Source: Chloroflexota bacterium
GTDB taxonomy: Bacteria; Chloroflexota; UBA6077; FW602-bin22; JAMCYS01
Length of the DNA stretch: 56,834 bases
Assembly (NCBI GenBank): GCA_023473795.1
Contig: JAMCYS010000154.1
Span: 21,861 to 78,694, forward strand
Direction: 5' to 3'
Below are positions 14,853 to 25,041 of this stretch, piece after piece. How positions within the stretch are numbered: position 1 is the first letter of the stretch; each line of letters begins with the position of its first letter. The notes under the pieces were generated by a model that was given only the letters and a program-made list of their open reading frames with translations, did not search any database and was not told the DNA's origin. Made by a program: the position numbers and the translations under genes.

Positions 14853-16169
14853 CTAGGACTGCTGCCCACCCGGGCAGCCGCAAAAGCCCGTCACAGTCGG
14901 GACTGAGTTGACCTCCGCGGCAGGGCCCCCGCTCGGTCGCGGCTTTGTCAGAAGCAAAACAACCAGCGACAGGGCCGCCCACAGTACCGCGGGCCAGGTT
15001 TGGCCCAGAAGACCGTTGGCCAGCCAGGGCGTGGCCAAGCTGCCCACGAGCAAGGGCACGGCAGTCCGGGCGCGTCGCCGCGTTATCGCCGGCAGCGCGG
15101 CAAGCCACAGACATAGATCGTATATCATCGCGTGTGGGCTGACCAGCACCCCGGCGAAACCGACGGCGCCGGCAGCTTCCTTGAGGCCCCAGCGACGCCA
15201 CAGAGCCAGCCAGACCACCGCCGTCAGCCCGTCGGAGACCACCAGCAGCGGCCTCTCCCATTCGCTCGTACTGACAAGCAACGCTTCCCAGGAGTAGGTG
15301 GAGGCACGCCACATCAGATTCAGGGCCATCTGGTCACCGGCCCAGCTGATTGACGCCAGGTACGCCGCTATGCCATCGACTCCGACCAGCGCCACGCTCG
15401 CTACGACCGAGCCGACGCAGCCCACTGCCAATAGGAGGAGCGGCCGCCACCGGCGGCCGATCAGCAGAACGAAAGCTGGCAGCAGAATGAGCTGGGGCTT
15501 GGGTAGAAGCAACCACGTAGCCACACCTGACCAAGGCTTAGTGCCGCTGGCGGCGGTAGCAAACAAGACCAGTCCCAGCGACAGAAAGACCGACACCTGG
15601 CCGAACTTGAGGGCCGCCGCCACCGGCAGCCAGAACGGCAGCCAACAAAGCACCGCCCCCCAGCGCCAGGAGGGCAAGTGCCGGTACAAGACCCAGCAGG
15701 TACCCACCAGTGCCCCCAGCTGGAACAGTCCCCAGATCAGCGACGCCTCCTGCAACCCAAGTGCGGCAAGCGGCAGCATCACCACTAGAAAAACGGGCGG
15801 ATAAAGGAAATACAGCATGTCTGCTGGCGCCGCGGGCAGTCCGGTCAGACTGGCTCGCAGCGCGAGTTCGGCAGAACGGTCGTACGGAGACTGCCCAGTG
15901 CCAAACAGCGCGCTGCCGATGTAGTAGCTGACAAAGTCCGAGTTGGCGGGCGGGACTCCTCGCAGAGCCTCCCACCAGACTAGCAGCATTGCCAGACTCA
16001 CGGCAAGGCCAGCGCCGCCGATGGTGAGCGCGGCGATGTCGGCGGCCCTGTCGTGGCCTGTGCTGGCCGCAAAGTCCGCGGGGGCACTGGCAGTGGTCTG
16101 TCGGCCCTCTGTCAACCCACCCTCCGGTAGCAACGTCGACCCATCCCGCGGACAAAGCGACTGCCGCAC
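14853..16169 (-). CDS. GT87-like (DUF2029) membrane glycosyltransferase
   Basis: Third GT87-like protein of the cluster, up to 438 residues with about ten helices. The first outer loop carries NSDFVSYYIGSALF, then GQSPYD and FLYPPVFLVVMLPLAAL, the usual family order. GTG 16169 is the outer start; TTG 16115 has a better ribosome site (GGAGGG) and removes a non-conserved tail, so it may be the true start. It is separated from the downstream operon by 138 bp, which holds a short CACACC/GGTGTG palindrome, so it may be transcribed separately. Confidence 0.75.
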   Translation of the reverse strand: MRQSLCPRDGSTLLPEGGLTEGRQTTASAPADFAASTGHDRAADIAALTIGGAGLAVSLAMLLVWWEALRGVPPANSDFVSYYIGSALFGTGQSPYDRSAELALRASLTGLPAAPADMLYFLYPPVFLVVMLPLAALGLQEASLIWGLFQLGALVGTCWVLYRHLPSWRWGAVLCWLPFWLPVAAALKFGQVSVFLSLGLVLFATAASGTKPWSGVATWLLLPKPQLILLPAFVLLIGRRWRPLLLLAVGCVGSVVASVALVGVDGIAAYLASISWAGDQMALNLMWRASTYSWEALLVSTSEWERPLLVVSDGLTAVVWLALWRRWGLKEAAGAVGFAGVLVSPHAMIYDLCLWLAALPAITRRRARTAVPLLVGSLATPWLANGLLGQTWPAVLWAALSLVVLLLTKPRPSGGPAAEVNSVPTVTGFCGCPGGQQS

Positions 16170-16401: not shown

Positions 16402-16540
16402 CTGTTGAGTGCCACGGGGCGACCCAGTATTACCAACTTCAATTGAAGCTCGCTCTCGCGTTCGCCGGCCCATTCGCGACAGGATGTAAGGCCAACGCGG
16501 GATCTGTATGTGAATCGGGAGTGTGGGAGGGCGGAATCAG

Positions 16541-17236
16541 ATGCGCGAGCCGAACGAGAAAGTGAAGATCCTCATTGCGGATGACCACCCCATCTTTCGC
16601 CAAGGGCTCCGCGGAATACTGAACGAAGAGCCGGAGTTCGAGGTCGTCGGAGAGACCGCCGACGGTAACCAAGCAGTAGACCTGTCCCAGACCCTCAGCC
16701 CTGACGTGCTGCTCATCGATGCGCACTTGCCCGGCAAAGACGGCATCGAGGTTGCCCGCGCGGTCAAGATGCACTCCCCAAGTACCGGCATCATTATCAT
16801 GACTGCCCAGGACGATGAAGAGCAACTGTTCCAGGCCATCAAGGTGGGAGCCGCCGGGTACTATCTGAAAGACATCGAACCCGCGACGCTGCTGGAGGCG
16901 ATCCGTCGGGTTAGCGTCGGAGAGTACCTCATCAACGAAAGCGTCCTCACGAAGCCCCTCGTCGCTTCCCGCGTGCTGAAACAGTTCCGCGACTTGGCCC
17001 TCGCCGGGCAGGATGTCGAGCCACTCTTTGTTCCGCTGTCGGCCCGCGAAATAGAGGTCCTCGAATACATAGCCCGTGGCAACAGCAACAAGGAAATCGC
17101 ACGCGCCCTCAAGATCAGCGACCAAACGGTCAAGAACCACATTACCTCCATATTGCGGAAACTGGCCGTCAACGACCGAACGCAGGCCGTGGTTTACGCT
17201 CTGCGACACGGTTGGATCAAGATGCATGAGGTCTAG
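16541..17236 (+). CDS. NarL/DegU-type response regulator
   Basis: A 231-residue two-domain regulator. The receiver (8-125) has the full active site: D14/D15, phospho-acceptor D60 (LLIDAHLPG), T88 and K110 (YYLKD). The C-terminal LuxR-type HTH (about 165-228) has LSAREIEVLEYIARGNSNKEIA and VKNHITSILRKL. ATG 16541 follows GGGAGGG. The next gene is a kinase-like protein that lacks catalytic residues, and the Flp pilus locus lies downstream, so this protein probably controls pilus expression. Its phosphate source is unclear. Confidence 0.93.
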   Translation: MREPNEKVKILIADDHPIFRQGLRGILNEEPEFEVVGETADGNQAVDLSQTLSPDVLLIDAHLPGKDGIEVARAVKMHSPSTGIIIMTAQDDEEQLFQAIKVGAAGYYLKDIEPATLLEAIRRVSVGEYLINESVLTKPLVASRVLKQFRDLALAGQDVEPLFVPLSAREIEVLEYIARGNSNKEIARALKISDQTVKNHITSILRKLAVNDRTQAVVYALRHGWIKMHEV

Positions 17237-17245
17237 ATCCCAGTA

Positions 17246-18328
17246 ATGGGTGAGGAATCGCCCCCAAGGGACGCTCTTCTGAGGGAGTGCGAGCTAGCGC
17301 GGCTGGACGGCCGGAAGACCATCGATCAACTGCAACGGCAATTGTACGAGCTCCGTCTACTCGTGCGGCAAGTCGAAACCGAACTCCAGCAACTTGCCCC
17401 AAAGCGCAGCGAACGAGAAGAGCAAGTACGCCTTGTGGAGATCGACCCTGCCGCTTTCACGCCGGCGCTCGTTCGCGAGGCTTACGCCGCGCTCGCCGAG
17501 GTCGCGAACCGCCACTTCCTAATGCAGGTGCAGCTGGACTCCCTGCGCCAGAGGGAGCAAGCGCTGACGCTTCAGCTGGGGCAGGCGGAACAATCGTCGA
17601 ACTTGCTGGCCAAGATAGCGATGTTCTTGCCGGACTTGCGCTCCGGCGAAGCGGCACCCCCGGCGAATGGCGGGGGGATCTCGCACCGCGAGACTGCGCG
17701 GCTTCTGGTCACGGCGCGGGAAGAGCAGAGACAGCTGCTTACCCAGCAGATCCTGGATGGGCCAGTGACGGTTCTGAGCAATCTGGTGCTGCAGGCAGAA
17801 GTCGGCCTGCGCCTGATGAGCCGCAACAAAGACACGGCAATGGCCGAATTGAAGGAGTTGAAGGATTCCCTGGCGGGCGCGCTGGGAGAGGTGAAGCGGT
17901 TTGCCGTGACCATGAGTCCCCCATCTCTGCCGGAGATGGGTCTCCCCGGCACGCTGCGGCGGTACCTCGCCGAGGTGGAGACCCGAACCGGTGTGGCGGC
18001 CCACTTCGCCAGTTCCGGAGATGACATGCGCCTGCCGGCGGAGACGGAACTCTATCTCTTTCGCGCGGCCCAGGAGGCTCTGGGCTACTTACTGGTGGGT
18101 GCCCCGCCGTCCGAGATCGGTGTCTCTCTCTCCTTCACCCCACACTCCGCGCAAATGGAAGTTGCCGCGGCCTACGCCGGCCTCGCCCCATCGGCAGGCA
18201 GCGAGCAGGAAGACTTGCGGAACCTGGGCTACTACAGCCAGGCCTGTGGCGGCAAGGTCTTGGTGGACAGACCGAACGAAAGCAACCTGCAAATCCGCAT
18301 CTTCGTTCCCAGTCCCCAACCCGTCTAG
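17246..18328 (+). CDS. degenerate DegS/LiaS-like histidine kinase (pseudokinase)
   Basis: A 360-residue cytoplasmic protein: coiled coil (about 20-115), a DHp-like helix pair (about 155-220) and a C-terminal ATPase-like fold. In kinases of this class the DHp reads HDGP; here it is LDGP (170-173), so Leu replaces the phospho-accepting His. The ATP site is also lost: QEALGYLLVG stands where the N box (QEALxNxxKH) should be, and no DxGxG motif follows. The end (ACGGKVLVDRP, then LQIRIFVP) still keeps the kinase fold signature. Nine bases after the response regulator gene. Probably a binding partner or decoy, not an enzyme. Confidence 0.8.
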   Translation: MGEESPPRDALLRECELARLDGRKTIDQLQRQLYELRLLVRQVETELQQLAPKRSEREEQVRLVEIDPAAFTPALVREAYAALAEVANRHFLMQVQLDSLRQREQALTLQLGQAEQSSNLLAKIAMFLPDLRSGEAAPPANGGGISHRETARLLVTAREEQRQLLTQQILDGPVTVLSNLVLQAEVGLRLMSRNKDTAMAELKELKDSLAGALGEVKRFAVTMSPPSLPEMGLPGTLRRYLAEVETRTGVAAHFASSGDDMRLPAETELYLFRAAQEALGYLLVGAPPSEIGVSLSFTPHSAQMEVAAAYAGLAPSAGSEQEDLRNLGYYSQACGGKVLVDRPNESNLQIRIFVPSPQPV

Positions 18329-18421
18329 TCTGCCCGCATCACCCGCTCTACACCACAGTTCCTACTACCCATCACTCACTTCCTTTCACCCCCTCGTAAC
18401 TAATTCGGTATTACCTTCCCA

Positions 18422-18450: not shown

Positions 18451-18555
18451 GCAAACAAGAAGAGGGGCTGAGTGTAGGGTAGTCCGGTGGTTGAGCAGCA
18501 AGAGGCCAGACGGGTCTCGGCAGCCCCCAATAGCGGAAAGGAGGTAAATGGAACG

Positions 18556-18738
18556 ATGTACCTGTGGCTGCTCGCGCAATCGTATCTGGCGATGCCGCGC
18601 CGCCAGGAGGGCCAGGGGCTGGTAGAGTACGCGCTGATTATCGTACTTGTAGCCGTTCTCATCATCGTCGCGCTCCTAGCCCTCAAGAACCAGGTCTCCG
18701 GCACTTTCTCGACGATCGTTTCCGGTTTGTCTCAGTAG
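18556..18738 (+). CDS. flp: Flp type IVb pilin 1
   Basis: A 60-residue prepilin. The leader ends at Gly19, and the mature protein starts QGLVEYALIIVLVAV: the G-xxxx-E-Y rule of Flp pilins is met, with Glu at +5. A single hydrophobic helix follows. ATG 18556 lies behind a perfect AAAGGAGGT, implying high expression; the longer open frame from 18487 overlaps that ribosome site. First of three pilin-like genes ahead of the assembly genes. No prepilin peptidase is in the window. Confidence 0.92.
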   Translation: MYLWLLAQSYLAMPRRQEGQGLVEYALIIVLVAVLIIVALLALKNQVSGTFSTIVSGLSQ

Positions 18739-18820
18739 TAGGCCCGACGCCGAGCTCGCGACCGAGGAAGGCGAACAAGTATCGACCGGCGGCAACAATT
18801 GAGGGAAGGAGGTGATACGA

Positions 18821-19000
18821 GTGCTGTATCTCTGGCTGTTGGCCCAGTCGCTGTTGGCCCGCCGCGAAGAGGGGCAGGGTCTGGTCGAGTATGCGCTAAT
18901 CATCGCGCTAGTGGCGATCCTGATCATCTTGGCGCTGCTCGCCCTGAAGAATCAGGTTTCCTCCACGTTCTCGACGATCGTTTCCGGTTTGCATCAGTAG
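18821..19000 (+). CDS. flp: Flp type IVb pilin 2
   Basis: A 59-residue close paralogue of pilin 1 (same YLWLLAQS leader and LALLALKNQVS tail). Cleavage is expected after Gly18, giving QGLVEYALIIALVAI. GTG 18821 follows AAGGAGGTGAT; an in-frame GTG nine bases earlier is part of that ribosome site. A 24-nt exact match near the 3' ends (18706-18729 and 18968-18991) indicates a recent tandem duplication. Confidence 0.92.
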   Translation: MLYLWLLAQSLLARREEGQGLVEYALIIALVAILIILALLALKNQVSSTFSTIVSGLHQ

Positions 19001-19064
19001 TACCTGGCAAGCATCCGGCTGCGGGACGAATGCCCTGTGGCGGTAGTGAACGACTGGTAGGCAG

Positions 19065-19250
19065 ATGATGATGGCAAGACTAGTGATCGATTGGCTCTCT
19101 GGGCAGCGAAGCAGCGGTTACGGCAAGTCAGTGACCGAGTCCGCGTTGGTTCTCTTCTTAGTAGTCACCGTAGTGTCCACGGCGACGGTCACTGTCGGTC
19201 ATCAGCTTTCCGCAACCTGTTCAGGAATTCTGGCGGCTTTGCAGCCTTAG
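19065..19250 (+). CDS. diverged third Flp-like pilin
   Basis: A 61-residue protein with the pilin plan but low similarity to the other two. The G-xxxx-E rule holds (G20, then KSVT, E25), but the usual Tyr is Ser26 and the helix is VLFLVVTVVSTATVTV. It has a single Cys near the C-terminus. Three successive ATGs (19065, 19068, 19071) could start it, and the ribosome site is weak, so expression should be lower. It may be a minor or tip pilin, or a gene losing function. Confidence 0.65.
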   Translation: MMMARLVIDWLSGQRSSGYGKSVTESALVLFLVVTVVSTATVTVGHQLSATCSGILAALQP

Positions 19251-19303
19251 GTGGCGAGGCGGCTTAGCGGCAGTGCCATCACCTGGTTGTTGACGAGATT
19301 TAG

Positions 19304-19374
19304 ACTCCAGCGTGACGAGGTCAGATCCAAGCGTTGTATTACCGAACCGAAGGCAGCAACCATGACGCTGGAGT
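19304..19374 (+). other. inverted repeat in the pilin-cpaB spacer
   Basis: ACTCCAGCGT (19304-19313) and ACGCTGGAGT (19365-19374) are exact complements enclosing 51 nt. With the palindrome at 19458 they make the 314-bp gap 19251-19564 strongly structured. It does not match a riboswitch consensus that I know. Confidence 0.4.
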
Positions 19375-19457
19375 AAAGCGCCGGCCACCGAGGTTGAGTT
19401 CCCGAGAGCGCTTGGCCGGTAATGGCCCGGTCAAAGCCAAAGCGCAGGGTGATCTGG

Positions 19458-19487
19458 TGGGAGCCCTACCGGCCGGTAGGGCTCCCA
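19458..19487 (+). terminator. 30-bp perfect palindrome; terminator or processing hairpin
   Basis: TGGGAGCCCTACCGG joined directly to its complement, followed by TTTCGTCTC. It lies between the pilins and cpaB. It would let pilin transcripts outnumber those of the assembly genes by partial termination or by protecting a processed 3' end. The T tract is short. Confidence 0.6.
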
Positions 19488-19564
19488 TTTCGTCTCAAGT
19501 TCGCGATACGATCGCGTAGTCACCGCTCGCCGGCACGTCGATGCGGCCGGCAGGAGGTTAGGGA

Positions 19565-20359
19565 ATGGGCAAGCGCCGAGCCGGCGTGGTCCTCACGATA
19601 TTCGGCGTCGTTCTAGCCATAATGGTAGGCGGCGCTGTCTTCACGCTCTCCCAGCAGGCCACCGCGGCCAACGAGGAGGAGTCTGTACAAGCTATCGTCG
19701 TTCTCTCTCGAGTAAATGAGCGCACGGCGATTCCGGCCACCGCCATCGGCGTCGTGTCGGCGCCCAAGTCTGTCGTTCCACCGAGCGCACTTACCCACGT
19801 GGAGGACGCGATCGGCAAGATGACGCTGGAGGACATGTACCCGGGCGACTGGGTCTTGAGCGACCGTATCGCCGACACCAAAGGCGAGAGCGGACGTTCG
19901 TTCACGATCGAGTCTGGGCAGGTAATCGTCTCGTTCCCCGCGTCTGACATCATCCAGATGGGAGCGGTGAAGACGGGCGACTATGTCGATGTGCTTATCA
20001 CCTTCGATACCACCAAGGAACAAGGCGCGGCCGCTCCGGGACAGCCGGCTAACCAGGGGCAGGTTTCGCCCGGCGGGACAACGCAGCTAACAATGCAAAA
20101 CTTGAGAGTCCTCAACGACGTGGGCGGGGGAGAGCCGCAGGCCGCGGGCAGCGGCAGCACGGCGGCACCAGCCCAGGCGCCCAAGCAAGTTCTCTTCGCC
20201 GTATCCCGGCAGGACGCCATTGTCCTCAAGCAGATCAAGGACTATCCGGGGGCCAAACTAGAGTTGGCTCTGCGGGCTGCCGGCGACAACCGAGTCTATT
20301 CCACGGAGGCCGTGAATATGCGCGGCTTGATCGAGCGCTTCAAAATACAGGCTCCCTAA
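19565..20359 (+). CDS. cpaB: Flp pilus assembly protein CpaB/RcpC
   Basis: 264 residues: one N-terminal membrane helix (VVLTIFGVVLAIMVGGAVFTL), then an SAF domain (about 42-115) and an RcpC-type domain (VSFPASDIIQMGAVKTGDYVDVLITF). CpaB proteins are periplasmic or exocellular parts of Tad machines and usually work with a secretin, which is absent here. A Gly/Gln/Ala/Pro-rich insert lies at about 155-210. The ATG follows AGGAGGT. First of five consecutive tad genes. Confidence 0.88.
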   Translation: MGKRRAGVVLTIFGVVLAIMVGGAVFTLSQQATAANEEESVQAIVVLSRVNERTAIPATAIGVVSAPKSVVPPSALTHVEDAIGKMTLEDMYPGDWVLSDRIADTKGESGRSFTIESGQVIVSFPASDIIQMGAVKTGDYVDVLITFDTTKEQGAAAPGQPANQGQVSPGGTTQLTMQNLRVLNDVGGGEPQAAGSGSTAAPAQAPKQVLFAVSRQDAIVLKQIKDYPGAKLELALRAAGDNRVYSTEAVNMRGLIERFKIQAP

Positions 20360-20398
20360 CGGCAGACCAGTCAATCAATTGGGCACAGTGGGCAAGGT

Positions 20399-21664
20399 AT
20401 GAACGAGAAACGGCGCCCGATCCGCTTGTTGATCGCGGACGATAGCGGCGAAACGCGCACCAGCCTGGAGAAGATGCTGTCTCTCGAGGACGACATTCAG
20501 ATCGTTGGCCAGGCCTCTAGCGGTAAACAGGCGATCGAGAAAGGGCGCGAACTGCGTCCGGATATCATCCTAATGGATGTCTGGATGCCCGAGGTCGATG
20601 GCATAGCCGCCACCGAAGTCATTGCCACCGACATCAGCTCGGTGCAGGTGATTATGATGTCGGTTGCCGGCACCTCAGATCTGCTCAGGCGGGCGATGCT
20701 GGCGGGGGCAAGAGAGTATCTTGTCAAACCGTTCAGCATCGAAGAGCTGGCCGCCAGTCTGCGACGGGTGTTCGATCTCTATTGCCCCAAGCAACCATCC
20801 ACCCCCATTCATATCACTGGCCCCGGCAGAGGGGCTAGCCCCGACAGGCAGCAGGGTAGGATCATAGCCGTCGGCGGCCCGAAGGGCGGCTCCGGAAGAA
20901 CCACGATCGCCTGCAACCTTGCCGTGGCCCTGGCCCAGACAGCAGGCCAGCCAGTTGCTCTAGTGGACGCCAGTATCCCGTTTGGCGACGTGGGCTTAGC
21001 GCTCAACTTGGCCAATGGTCGGAGCATCGTCGACCTGGCCCTGGCTGATCCGGCAGAGATCGACCTGCCCGCTGTCGAAGAGCTGTTGGTGGCGCATTCT
21101 AGCGGCGTTAGGGTGCTGCTGGCGCCAGCCGCGCAAGGCAGTTCAGAGGGCATCAATCAGGCGTACGTGAAGAAGATACTGCTGGAGTTGACGTCTGGCT
21201 ACCGTTATGTAGTGGTCGACCTATCACCCCACCTGCACGAGGCCGACTTGGCCGCTTTGGGCGTGGCTGACAAGGTCGTGTTGGTGTACACCCTCGAAGT
21301 GCCTTCGGTTAGGGGCCTGAAGCACTACCTAGAGACGGCGAAAGCGCTCGGACTCGACGAAGGCAAACTGGTTCCAGTCGCCAACCGGATGGACATGCCA
21401 GGAGGCGTGCGTCTGCCGGATGTCGAAAAGAGCCTGAATCTGCGCACCGCGTTGGGCATACCCACTGACCTGCGTCTGGCGACCTACGCTCTGAACAAGG
21501 GCACACCGTTCGTTCTCAGCCAGCCGAAGAGCGCGCTGGCGCTGAGCATCCGCGACCTAGCCGGCCTGGTCGACGGCGAGTCTGCCGTCAGTCAGGCCAC
21601 AGCCTCTAAGCCTGCTAAGAAGGGCCGCGGGTCCCACATGTTCGGCTGGAAGAAGCCCAGCTAG
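20399..21664 (+). CDS. cpaE: CpaE/TadZ-like protein: receiver plus MinD-type ATPase
   Basis: 421 residues. The receiver (8-125) has phospho-acceptor D60 (ILMDVWMP) and K110. A MinD/ParA-type domain follows (about 153-400). The signature lysine K162 is kept in KGGSGRT, but the P-loop lysine is R167, so ATP hydrolysis is probably weak or lost, as in other atypical TadZ proteins. VALVDASIPFGDVG supplies the switch I Asp. TadZ/CpaE places the pilus machine at the pole or another site. The C-terminal tail is Lys-rich. Confidence 0.88.
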   Translation: MNEKRRPIRLLIADDSGETRTSLEKMLSLEDDIQIVGQASSGKQAIEKGRELRPDIILMDVWMPEVDGIAATEVIATDISSVQVIMMSVAGTSDLLRRAMLAGAREYLVKPFSIEELAASLRRVFDLYCPKQPSTPIHITGPGRGASPDRQQGRIIAVGGPKGGSGRTTIACNLAVALAQTAGQPVALVDASIPFGDVGLALNLANGRSIVDLALADPAEIDLPAVEELLVAHSSGVRVLLAPAAQGSSEGINQAYVKKILLELTSGYRYVVVDLSPHLHEADLAALGVADKVVLVYTLEVPSVRGLKHYLETAKALGLDEGKLVPVANRMDMPGGVRLPDVEKSLNLRTALGIPTDLRLATYALNKGTPFVLSQPKSALALSIRDLAGLVDGESAVSQATASKPAKKGRGSHMFGWKKPS

Positions 21665-21743
21665 AAGTAAGCGAATCGCCGGTAGCATTCCGCCGGGACG
21701 ACGGTGATGCCCCGAACGACGGCGACTAGTCAAGGAGAAAACC

Positions 21744-23129
21744 ATGTCCCTGTTGAGAAGAATCGAGGGCAACCTCGCCGCTCCAGCGGCGACGCCGGCG
21801 GCGAGCCCGGAGAGCACCCGTGCCACCAGCACGACGACGGGGTCTCGAGATTCTGGCCGTGAGATGAGCCTGGAGCTACGGGCCAAAGTGCAGAACCGGC
21901 TGATCAGCGAGCTTGACCCGAAAATGGATCTGAGCGACAGGGCCAAAGTAGAGCGCACCATCGAGGAGCTCTTCAACCTTATTCTGGCCGAAGAAAACAT
22001 AATCCTCACGAGAGTTGAACGCTCGCGCTTCTTCGAGCAGATTCTGGCTGAGATTCTCGGCTACGGACCGATTGAAAACCTGCTGAAGGACGAAACGATC
22101 TCCGAAGTGATGATCAACGGCCCGAGGCAGGTCTACATCGAACGTAAGGGCCGGATCGTCAAAACGGATACGCGCTTCGAGAACGACGCCCATGTAATGC
22201 GCATCATCGATCGCATCATCTCGCCGCTCGGTCGGCGTTGCGACGAGACACAGCCAATGGTTGATGCCCGTCTGCCTGATGGCTCCCGCGTGAACGCTGT
22301 GATACCGCCGATTTCGCTGGTAGGCCCCGTGGTCACCATTCGGAAGTTCGCCAAGAACCCCCTCACCGTGGACCAGCTGATCGAGTTCGGCAGCATTACG
22401 CGGGAGGTTGCCGAGTTCCTTCGCGCTTGCGTGATCGGCAGGCTGAATATCATCATCTCCGGTGGCACTGGCTCCGGCAAGACGACGCTCTTGAACGTCC
22501 TCTCTGACTACATTCCCGACGACGAACGCATCGTCACCGTAGAAGACGCCGCGGAGCTCCAGCTGCGCCAGGAGCACACTATCACCCTTGAAGCTAGGCC
22601 GGCCAACATCGAAGGGAAAGGGCAGATCACGATTCGCGACCTGGCGATCAATGCTTTGCGCATGCGTCCCGATCGGATAGTGGTAGGCGAGTGCCGCGGT
22701 CGTGAGGCGCTCGACATGCTACAGGCGATGAACACCGGCCACGACGGCTCTCTGACCACGTTGCACTCCAATAGTCCGCGAGACACCATCGCGCGCCTCG
22801 AAACGATGGTCCTAATGGCGGGCATGGATTTGCCGCTACGGGCGATTCGAGAACAGATTGCGGCGGCGATCGACCTTGTAGTGCACCAGGAGCGCTTCCG
22901 GGACGGCACGCGCCGGGTGACCAGCGTGACGGAAGTCCAGGGTCTGGAAAGCGAAACCATAGTGCTGCAGGACATCTTCACGTTCCAGCAGACAGGCGTC
23001 AGCGAAGGCCGAGTCCTGGGGCAGCTGCGGCCGACGGGCATGCGCCCGAAGTTCGCGCCTAAGTTGGAGCGATCCGGCATCAATTTGCCGCCGTCTATCT
23101 TTGGCATCAGACTAGAGGCCTTGCGCTAG
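21744..23129 (+). CDS. cpaF: Tad secretion ATPase CpaF/TadA
   Basis: 461-residue hexameric motor that drives Flp pilin assembly at the inner face of the membrane. Visible: N-terminal helical domain (40-120), Walker A GGTGSGKTT (240-248), Asp-box VTVEDAAELQL, Walker B region RPDRIVVGECRG and the His-box TTLHSNSPRD. All catalytic motifs are intact. Good SD (AAGGAG) upstream. Works with TadB and TadC, encoded next. Confidence 0.95.
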   Translation: MSLLRRIEGNLAAPAATPAASPESTRATSTTTGSRDSGREMSLELRAKVQNRLISELDPKMDLSDRAKVERTIEELFNLILAEENIILTRVERSRFFEQILAEILGYGPIENLLKDETISEVMINGPRQVYIERKGRIVKTDTRFENDAHVMRIIDRIISPLGRRCDETQPMVDARLPDGSRVNAVIPPISLVGPVVTIRKFAKNPLTVDQLIEFGSITREVAEFLRACVIGRLNIIISGGTGSGKTTLLNVLSDYIPDDERIVTVEDAAELQLRQEHTITLEARPANIEGKGQITIRDLAINALRMRPDRIVVGECRGREALDMLQAMNTGHDGSLTTLHSNSPRDTIARLETMVLMAGMDLPLRAIREQIAAAIDLVVHQERFRDGTRRVTSVTEVQGLESETIVLQDIFTFQQTGVSEGRVLGQLRPTGMRPKFAPKLERSGINLPPSIFGIRLEALR

Positions 23130-23147
23130 TAGTCGCGGGGGTACACC

Positions 23148-24095
23148 ATGCTCGCACTGGGTTTGGCTGCAATTGGCGCCGTGGCGACGATCCTCATCTT
23201 CCTCGGTTTGCGCTACGCGCTGGCTCGTGAAGGGGATATCAACGCGCGGCTGGAACAAGTCGTGGCCCGGAACACCTCGCTTTGGCGAGACGCCGGGGCC
23301 TCACGAGAATCGCTCGCCGCCGGATTGGACAAGGCGGTGGCGAGCCGCAGTTTCGCCGCGAATATCGCTCGTGATCTGGCGCGCGCCAACCTGAAGATCA
23401 CCGTCACCGAGTACATAACGATCCACGTGGTCATGTTCGTTCTGGTTGCCTTGCTGACGATACTGCTTACTGGCAACCCTGTGAGCAGCGTTCTGCTCGG
23501 CTTCATTAGCATGTTACTGCCACGTTTCTACGTCGCTCTCAGCCAGCAGCGCCGTCTCAATGCCTTCAACACCCAGCTGGCCGATACCTGCGGCATGCTG
23601 ACCAATGCTCTACGCACCGGCTACAGCTTGCTGCAAGCGATGGAAATGGTGAGTCGCGAGGGTCCTTCGCCCACTTCGGATGAGTTCCAGCGGGTGGTGC
23701 GCGAGGTTGGCCTCGGACTCACTCCAGAGCAGGCTCTGGCCAACCTGGTGCGCCGAATGAACAGCGAAGACCTGGACCTAATGGTGACGGCGATCAACGT
23801 TCAGCACGAGGTCGGCGGCAATCTTGCCCTCGTCCTGGACAGCATCGGACACACGATTCGGGAGCGCGTGCGGGTCAAAGGCGAGATCAAGACCCTGACC
23901 TCGCAGGTCAGCTGCAGCGGCAACGTAGTAAGTATGCTGCCGATCGGCTTGTGCATTCTTCTCTACTTGCTGAACTCCCAGTACATCATGACTATCTTCC
24001 AGCCCAGTTGGGTTCTCTGTCTGCCGGCGCTGGCGGCGGGCGGGATTATCGCCGGCTGGACCGTGATGCGTAAGATCACCGAGATCGAGGTTTAG
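23148..24095 (+). CDS. tadB: Tad platform membrane protein TadB
   Basis: 315 residues with helices near 2-22, two adjacent in the middle (TIHVVMFVLVALLTILLTG, then a second pair member) and two C-terminal. A GspF-type cytoplasmic domain (about 150-270) includes RTGYSLLQAMEMVSREGPSP and HEVGGNLALVLDSIGHTIRER. Forms the inner-membrane platform with TadC. ATG start 18 bp after cpaF. Confidence 0.92.
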   Translation: MLALGLAAIGAVATILIFLGLRYALAREGDINARLEQVVARNTSLWRDAGASRESLAAGLDKAVASRSFAANIARDLARANLKITVTEYITIHVVMFVLVALLTILLTGNPVSSVLLGFISMLLPRFYVALSQQRRLNAFNTQLADTCGMLTNALRTGYSLLQAMEMVSREGPSPTSDEFQRVVREVGLGLTPEQALANLVRRMNSEDLDLMVTAINVQHEVGGNLALVLDSIGHTIRERVRVKGEIKTLTSQVSCSGNVVSMLPIGLCILLYLLNSQYIMTIFQPSWVLCLPALAAGGIIAGWTVMRKITEIEV

Positions 24096-24105
24096 GAGGG
24101 CACTC

Positions 24106-25041
24106 GTGGATTCGATGGTATCCTCAGGCCTGGCGCTGCTCGCCTCCCTGGCCACGCTCGCGCTCTTCTACGGCTTCTCGCTCATCAGGGCGGGCCGACC
24201 CAAGATCAAGGATCGCATAGGGCAACTCGGCTCCCGCCCGGTCACCCTGGAGGAGATCGAGCTGTCGCAACCCTTCTTTGAGAGGGTGATTCGGCCGACG
24301 GTCAATCAAGTCGCGACCCTCCTCAACAAGCGCCGGCCAGAGCAGTCGACGCGCCAACTGCGTCATCGCCTGGCCCTCGCCGGCAATCCCAACAACATGG
24401 ACGTATCGGACTTCTTGGGCGTAAAGGGCATGGCGGCCCTAGGCGTCGGGGGGCTCTGCCTACTACTGCTGTTCAGCATCGTGCCACTGTGGCAGGCCGC
24501 CCTTGCCGGATCGATCTTCTCTGTCATCGGCTACACTCTGCCCGATTTCTGGTTGGGTAACATAGTCAATCGCCGTAAGAAGGAGATCCAGAAGGCGCTG
24601 CCAGATGCGCTCGACCTTCTCACCATCAGCGTCGAAGCCGGCTTGGGTTTCGATTCGGCAGTGAACAAGGTAGCACAGAAATGGCGCAATGCTCTCTCGG
24701 ACGAATTCAGACGTACTCTGGCGGAAATCCGCATGGGCAAAGCGCGACGTGATGCGCTGAAGGATCTAGCAATACGGACTGACGTCGCGGACATGAACAT
24801 GGTTCTGGCGGCCATTATCCAAGCGGATCAGCTCGGAGTGAGCATCGCCAAGATCTTGCGCGTCCAGGCCGACCAGATGCGCGTCAACCGCCGCCAGCGT
24901 GCCGAACAGGAAGCACACCAGGCGCCGGTCAAAATGACTTTCCCCTTGGTCTTCTTGATCTTTCCTGCTATGCTCATCATCATCGTGGGACCAGCAATCG
25001 TCCAGATCCTGCAATTGATGACCAGTGGAACGATACAATGA
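24106..25041 (+). CDS. tadC: Tad platform membrane protein TadC
   Basis: 311 residues with an N-terminal helix, a central pair, a GspF-type domain (QKALPDALDLLTISVEAGLG; ADQLGVSIAKILRVQADQMR) and a C-terminal helix. Pairs with TadB. GTG 24106 is preceded by AGGAGG overlapping the tadB stop region, so the two are coupled. The stop overlaps the next ATG by ATGA. No TadD-G or prepilin peptidase follows. Confidence 0.92.
   Translation: MDSMVSSGLALLASLATLALFYGFSLIRAGRPKIKDRIGQLGSRPVTLEEIELSQPFFERVIRPTVNQVATLLNKRRPEQSTRQLRHRLALAGNPNNMDVSDFLGVKGMAALGVGGLCLLLLFSIVPLWQAALAGSIFSVIGYTLPDFWLGNIVNRRKKEIQKALPDALDLLTISVEAGLGFDSAVNKVAQKWRNALSDEFRRTLAEIRMGKARRDALKDLAIRTDVADMNMVLAAIIQADQLGVSIAKILRVQADQMRVNRRQRAEQEAHQAPVKMTFPLVFLIFPAMLIIIVGPAIVQILQLMTSGTIQ

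Follow-up and report, generated by a model that had tools for sequence, protein, structure and literature searches.

The gene at positions 17246-18328 of the window, by which we mean the whole 56,834-nucleotide stretch of Chloroflexota DNA analysed here, is the second kinase gene (HK2) of an HK1-RR-HK2 cassette found at Tad pilus loci across the phylum, with its partner HK1 missing, rather than an isolated oddity. Alignment and residue content support the view that its product is phosphotransfer-dead. We regard it as about an even chance that this protein is a cassette pseudokinase that docks non-catalytically on the adjacent response regulator, which would receive its phosphate from another source.

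A degenerate kinase homologue beside an intact regulator

The window HK2 is a 360-aa open reading frame running from ATG to TAG. It starts 9 bp past the stop codon of the regulator gene, and Tad genes follow downstream at 18556-25041 (Table 1), in keeping with the pilus locus that had been proposed from inspection of the DNA. Alignment with the HDGPAQ helix of intact homologues puts the phospho-His column at Leu170, as the original prediction had it, in a register fixed by the flanking residues E159, R162, D171, G172, P173, N179, L182 and E185. The explanation of this His-to-Leu change as one miscalled assembly base was rejected, because the Leu170 codon (CTG) is two substitutions away from either His codon. 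The only histidines of the protein are those at positions 90, 147, 253 and 300. The proposed loss of the N box and of the glycine loop was likewise borne out: the N-box Asn aligns with Tyr281, and the Asp and first Gly of the G1 box (DxGxG) align with A308 and Y310. The phosphatase Gln position is occupied by Thr175.

Table 1 Features of the Tad locus and of the HK2 gene in the window
Feature	Position	Strand	Evidence
Unrelated opposite-strand ORF at the position of the relatives' HK1	14853..16169	-	ORF list, locus comparison
NarL/DesR-type response regulator (231 aa) with an intact phosphorylation pocket	16541..17236	+	Pfam, orthologue alignment
HK2, HisKA_3/DegS-type kinase homologue, 360 aa, putatively catalytically dead	17246..18328	+	ORF list, Pfam, alignment, predicted structure
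HK2 N-terminal coiled-coil, DegS-sensor-like, residues 8-127	17267..17626	+	pLDDT >90 over most; sub-threshold PF05384
HK2 DHp helical hairpin, residues 147-223; His>Leu170, Gln>Thr175; D171 and L182 retained	17684..17914	+	alignment, structure
HK2 CA-like domain, residues 228-355; GHKL fold, N and G1 boxes absent	17927..18310	+	alignment, fold search
Flp pilin, ATG start within ORF 18487-18738	18556..18738	+	ORF list, translation
Second Flp pilin, start codon not fixed	18812..19000	+	translation
RcpC/CpaB	19565..20359	+	PF16976
TadZ, ParA-type ATPase with an intact N-terminal receiver domain	20399..21664	+	Pfam, TadZ alignment
TadA/CpaF ATPase	21744..23129	+	PF00437
TadB	23148..24095	+	PF00482
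TadC	24106..25041	+	PF00482

Against Pfam, the window HK2 remained below threshold for HisKA_3 (18.7 bits, cut-off 24) and for DegS (PF05384; 16.7 bits, cut-off 27.6, with orthologues above it at 29.7 and 33.9), and no HATPase_c match was obtained; the intact orthologue L162 passed all three (HisKA_3 59.9, DegS 29.7 and HATPase_c 54.8 bits). Judged as a HisKA_3 kinase (PF07730 plus HATPase_c), the protein thus has the DHp and CA folds and the kinship but lacks the acceptor His and the N and G1 boxes. It scored 200 bits with an HK2 profile vs 105 with an HK1 profile, and its nearest homologues are only ~30% identical. Overall, 30 of 62 conserved positions are altered. Those retained comprise 0/2 catalytic positions in the DHp, 3/8 catalytic positions in the CA domain and 29/52 others, so that the comparison of catalytic with other positions (3/10 vs 29/52) is one of small numbers. 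The DHp keeps 17 of 33 non-catalytic conserved positions, the lowest among the degenerate homologues scored bar that of G008.

The predicted structure retains the coiled-coil, DHp and CA folds (mean pLDDT 84.9), with high confidence along the coiled-coil and in the greater part of the CA domain and lower values, about 67-84, over the DHp hairpin; the length, fold signature and open frame are kept, as originally described. The best PDB fold matches were DesK and DesK-DesR complexes, and the CA domain superposed on that of VraS with a TM score of 0.82 over 131 columns, while a sequence search of the PDB returned only a weak match to DesK (E 1.2). The DesK residues His188, Asp189, Gln193 and Leu200 (PMC5231405) correspond to L170, D171, T175 and L182 of the window HK2, in which the acidic and docking residues survive but not the acceptor or the phosphatase Gln. 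The protein is accordingly expected to act neither as a kinase nor as a normal HisKA_3 phosphatase, and docking would be the function most consistent with the surviving residues.

The adjacent NarL-type regulator had been described as retaining D60, T88 and K110, and these residues, along with D14 and D15, are invariant in an alignment of 13 sequences. Regulator orthologues in ten other genomes of the order are 71-76% identical, with ~97% identity over the DNA-binding half. The receiver domain of the window regulator is the most diverged of the order's eleven good orthologues (0.63 vs 0.80-0.86; 0.68 in G003, which has the regulator only), and its DNA-binding half is not diverged (0.97). Phylogenetic depth may explain part of this receiver divergence.

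An HK1-RR-HK2 cassette across the phylum

A scan with a regulator profile yielded 80 named loci which, together with the genome loci, display the recurring gene order HK1-RR-HK2-flp-rcpC-tadZABC; when genome contigs were scanned with a single HK2 protein, no relatives were recovered, HK2 being too diverged. The His, N box and G1 box are present in all 57 full-length HK1 copies, the other four of the 61 HK1s being fragments or unclear. For the 33 full-length HK2s adjoining an HK1, counted as loci and not as independent events, the CA motifs are intact in 6 and gone in 27. Among these 27, the acceptor His is retained in 25 and replaced by Arg in one (L059), and the last gene (L177) is split by a frameshift. 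L177 was rejected as a His-less case, since a single-base frameshift separates MHDGP from PAQSLTN and the His is present; CA loss with the His kept was thus counted for 25 full-length HK2s adjoining an HK1, and for L177 as well when read across the frameshift. Most homologues keep the His, so the universal absence that the original prediction had entertained does not hold.

HK2s with no HK1 in view are intact in 13 of 17 cases, and HK2 homologues lacking an adjacent regulator of the cassette type in 15 of 15; at L002, L046, L195 and L206 the contig runs out close to the regulator, which leaves the absence of HK1 unproven. At L061, a regulator and a CA-dead HK2 are preceded by a PHP-domain gene and not by HK1. 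Two unusual arrangements were also seen. At L195 (1225-2424), an HK2-like gene 3' of the regulator has an intact HATPase_c but reads KLRILNPL in place of a recognisable His motif, opposite to the usual CA-dead state, and at L206 (1234-2451) the gene in the HK2 position has a sub-threshold DegS-like N-terminus and no recognisable kinase half.

In the window, no HK1 lies beside the regulator. An HK1 orthologue was not found in the 96%-complete assembly either, the best match reaching 4e-36 vs 1e-60 or better in genomes where HK1 is present. The window is therefore an end state of the cassette, in which HK1 was not found and HK2 is dead.

In a tree of the N-terminal and DHp regions, with the columns of the His and Gln masked, loss of the CA motifs takes four changes and loss of the His three (H>L in the window, H>R in L059 and H>Q in L044), and the His was thus lost at least three times among HK2s. 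A single-change CA loss, obtained from a tree that included the CA domain, was judged to reflect long-branch attraction via shared loss, and the tree was rebuilt without this domain. The window HK2 groups with HK2 and not HK1 (branch support 100/99), its place within the HK2 clade being unsure because its branch is long.

Probable retention of the degenerate gene

Next, we evaluated whether the gene is retained or neutrally decaying. Measurements of dN/dS were made in dead relatives, the window HK2 being saturated at ~30% identity to its nearest homologues. CA-dead, His-keeping HK2 relatives displayed dN/dS values of 0.015-0.44 for the whole gene, 0-0.35 for the DHp and 0.01-0.32 for the dead CA domain, and are under purifying selection. 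In the window HK2 itself, GC content by codon position (0.71/0.44/0.77) matches that of neighbour genes and is coding-like in all three domains, and neutral simulations of the gene at 50% identity left a stop-free run in 0 of 200 cases. With the topology fixed, the window accounts for 26-27% of the tree length in HK2, a value near saturation, 26% in the regulator, 21-23% in TadA, 29-32% in TadZ, 15% in RcpC and 19% in TadB. As the HK2 share is similar to those of the regulator, TadA and TadZ, no burst of drift is seen. An excess rate on the window's end branch in a full-length tree (3.42 vs 0.45-0.70 in relatives) was discarded, none of it being left on the fixed topology with neighbour genes as a yardstick. 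Taken together, the frame, codon structure, fold and branch length indirectly indicate that the window HK2 is retained and not neutrally decaying. The original claim of selection and not decay was an inference rather than an observation when made, and these indirect tests fit its retention part.

Association with Tad genes and possible regulatory targets

We then compared the 13 genomes of the order; none of the others compared belongs to the family of the window genome (G000). The main tadA, at an identity of at least 70%, is found in G000, G005, G006, G008, G009 and G012, and all six carry an HK2, dead or live, beside the regulator. Four genomes (G002, G011, G003 and G010) retain the regulator and have neither the main tadA nor an adjacent HK2. 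G001 is an exception, with HK2 present and no main tadA, and G004 (short contig) and G007 (no regulator orthologue) fell outside this scoring. HK2 thus tends to go with Tad, an association that rests on few, related genomes. Because the regulator persists without the main Tad locus, it likely has other targets and is probably not dedicated to Tad. Regulator orthologues 71-74% identical to the window's were also observed at L125 (9621-10304) and L124 (9607-10308), away from any nearby kinase or Tad genes; judging from gene context, these would represent an orphan regulator with a role beyond a window-type Tad locus.

Within the window, the N-terminal receiver of TadZ has an intact pocket, and 41 of 45 TadZ sequences share its five residues DDDSK; this receiver is a possible second target for the kinases of the cassette. 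The word GTATTACC occurs three times in the window, always on the + strand (16427-16434, 18408-18415 and 19336-19343), in the non-coding gaps 5' of the regulator, the pilins and rcpC. None of 100 shuffles reached three copies, and the 4.4-Mb genome holds 30. It is a candidate shared operator, but one selected by eye post hoc and rare in the loci of relatives. At 19458-19487, 5' of rcpC, two 15-nt arms (TGGGAGCCCTACCGG / CCGGTAGGGCTCCCA) form a perfect, spacerless inverted repeat that precedes TTTCGTCT and may be a terminator.

Proposed mechanism and alternatives

We propose that an HK1-RR-HK2 cassette was ancestral at Chloroflexota Tad loci and that its HK2 subsequently became a pseudokinase. 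The window HK2 would most likely fold as a DegS/DesK-like dimer and dock on the adjacent NarL-type regulator, and, once bound, might tune it by sequestering it, by holding it in one state or by presenting it to another kinase. HK2 itself would be unable to autophosphorylate and, because the catalytic Gln is also gone, is probably unable to dephosphorylate. Phosphate would reach the regulator from a small phosphodonor or from a kinase whose gene lies elsewhere, another kinase being, as originally suggested, a plausible source, and the regulator and HK2 may together control Tad transcription. A broader scheme, which we put forward only tentatively, would make the cassette at Chloroflexota Tad loci a heterodimeric two-kinase switch, HK1 hydrolysing ATP and a CA-dead HK2 contributing the acceptor His and regulator docking. 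Some lineages, the window's among them, would have moved beyond this to an HK2 that can no longer be phosphorylated and that controls or senses the regulator purely by binding, perhaps coupling the regulator to the conserved TadZ receiver.

Alternatively, and in our view improbably, HK2 may pair with an active orphan HisKA_3 kinase encoded elsewhere and steer that kinase, the regulator not being its direct target. Other pseudokinases act in this way: DivL steers CckA, RocA steers CovS and FasC steers FasB. Such pairing would fit an ancestral state with HK1 and HK2 side by side, and ATPase-dead HK2s retain the His and DGPAQ where HK1 is present, a pattern suggestive of trans-phosphorylation of the kind put forward for FasB-FasC (PMC12675982). 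Ten further HisKA_3 kinase matches were obtained in the window genome, and for three of them the contig holds no NarL regulator match. However, HK1 is missing from this genome and its HK2 has no acceptor His, which rules out the FasC mechanism there, and any orphan partner kinase would be hypothetical.

It is less probable still that HK2 is a remnant of the cassette drifting toward loss after HK1 disappeared. HK1 is already lost, HK2 is absent beside the regulator in the four regulator-only genomes, the branch is long with nearly half of the conserved positions changed (30/62), and the regulator's receiver domain is the most diverged in the order, all as expected of a relic. Yet an intact 360-codon frame at ~30% identity is unexpected under neutrality, the codon positions are coding-like in every domain, and the rate is no higher than in neighbouring genes.

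Very unlikely is a role for HK2 solely as a dephosphorylating enzyme for the regulator: D171 is retained, and the motif persists in two other His-less homologues (QDGPAQ in L044, whose CA domain is intact, and RDDVAQ in L059), but the Gln after the His, which HisKA_3 dephosphorylation requires instead of the His itself (DesK Gln193; PMC5231405), is Thr175 in the window HK2. HisKA kinases have a Thr or Asn about one helical turn past the His (PMC5231405). To read Thr175 as a HisKA-type phosphatase residue of this kind is a weak hope. The spacing from the His in HisKA kinases differs by one residue from that of Thr175.

Comparison with known systems

Pseudo-histidine kinases and two-component control of Tad/Flp pili are both already known, and the docking pseudokinase that we favour for the window can be set against each. 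Natural pseudo-histidine kinases are few and have mostly been studied singly (DivL, RocA, FasC), and here intact, CA-dead and His-less copies all occur, from genome to genome of one phylum, in a single operon position beside the same regulator. The HK2 set thus forms a comparative series for asking what a dead kinase still does, and whether a second kinase turns into a docking or acceptor subunit once a live partner is present. The cassette is also a little-described regulatory module at Tad loci, mostly in uncultured bacteria.

For pilus control, the available portions of the reports on PprAB of Pseudomonas and on a Flp/Tad-linked two-component system of Pectobacterium (PMC3510237, PMC3767616) describe control of Flp/Tad pili, a linkage shared with the window, and those portions describe no pseudokinase. 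In one open literature library, no publication was found that describes either an HK1-RR-HK2 cassette or a pseudokinase of Tad loci. The original view that no system of this type had been described for Tad pili, which was also an inference when made, agrees with that library search as regards the pseudokinase, two-component control of such pili as such being known.

DesK-DesR, DegS and VraS resemble the window in fold, domain order, the DegS-like N-terminal coiled-coil and the paired NarL-type regulator; unlike them, the window HK2 is without the His, N box, G1 box and phosphatase Gln. In Corynebacterium, a ChrS pseudokinase variant acting with HrrS arose in laboratory evolution via a CA-domain frameshift (PMC9491836). 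It has no working CA domain, its His is dispensable and it helps a paralogous kinase to pass phosphate to the regulator, but its origin is the laboratory, whereas the window HK2 is natural and old. FasBCA of Streptococcus comprises a heterodimer of active FasB and the pseudokinase FasC with one regulator (PMC12675982). Like the cassette, it has two kinases and one regulator per operon, one kinase having a dispensable CA domain, and it fits the ATPase-dead, His-keeping HK2s. The Fas kinases are, however, membrane proteins, and the window has neither the active partner kinase in the same operon, which its relatives do have, nor a His retained alongside a dispensable CA domain. DivL of Caulobacter binds DivK~P by its regulator-docking face and has no kinase or phosphatase activity (PMC4211667). 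It shares with the window HK2 a kinase-like architecture without phosphotransfer, that is, no acceptor His and a kept fold, together with the regulator docking proposed here, although DivL belongs to a different kinase class with PAS sensors and controls CckA, and the window HK2 is a HisKA_3-type coiled-coil protein beside its presumed regulator. By analogy, relatives in which HK1 accompanies a CA-dead HK2 that still has its His resemble FasB-FasC, and the window looks like a later, DivL-like state.
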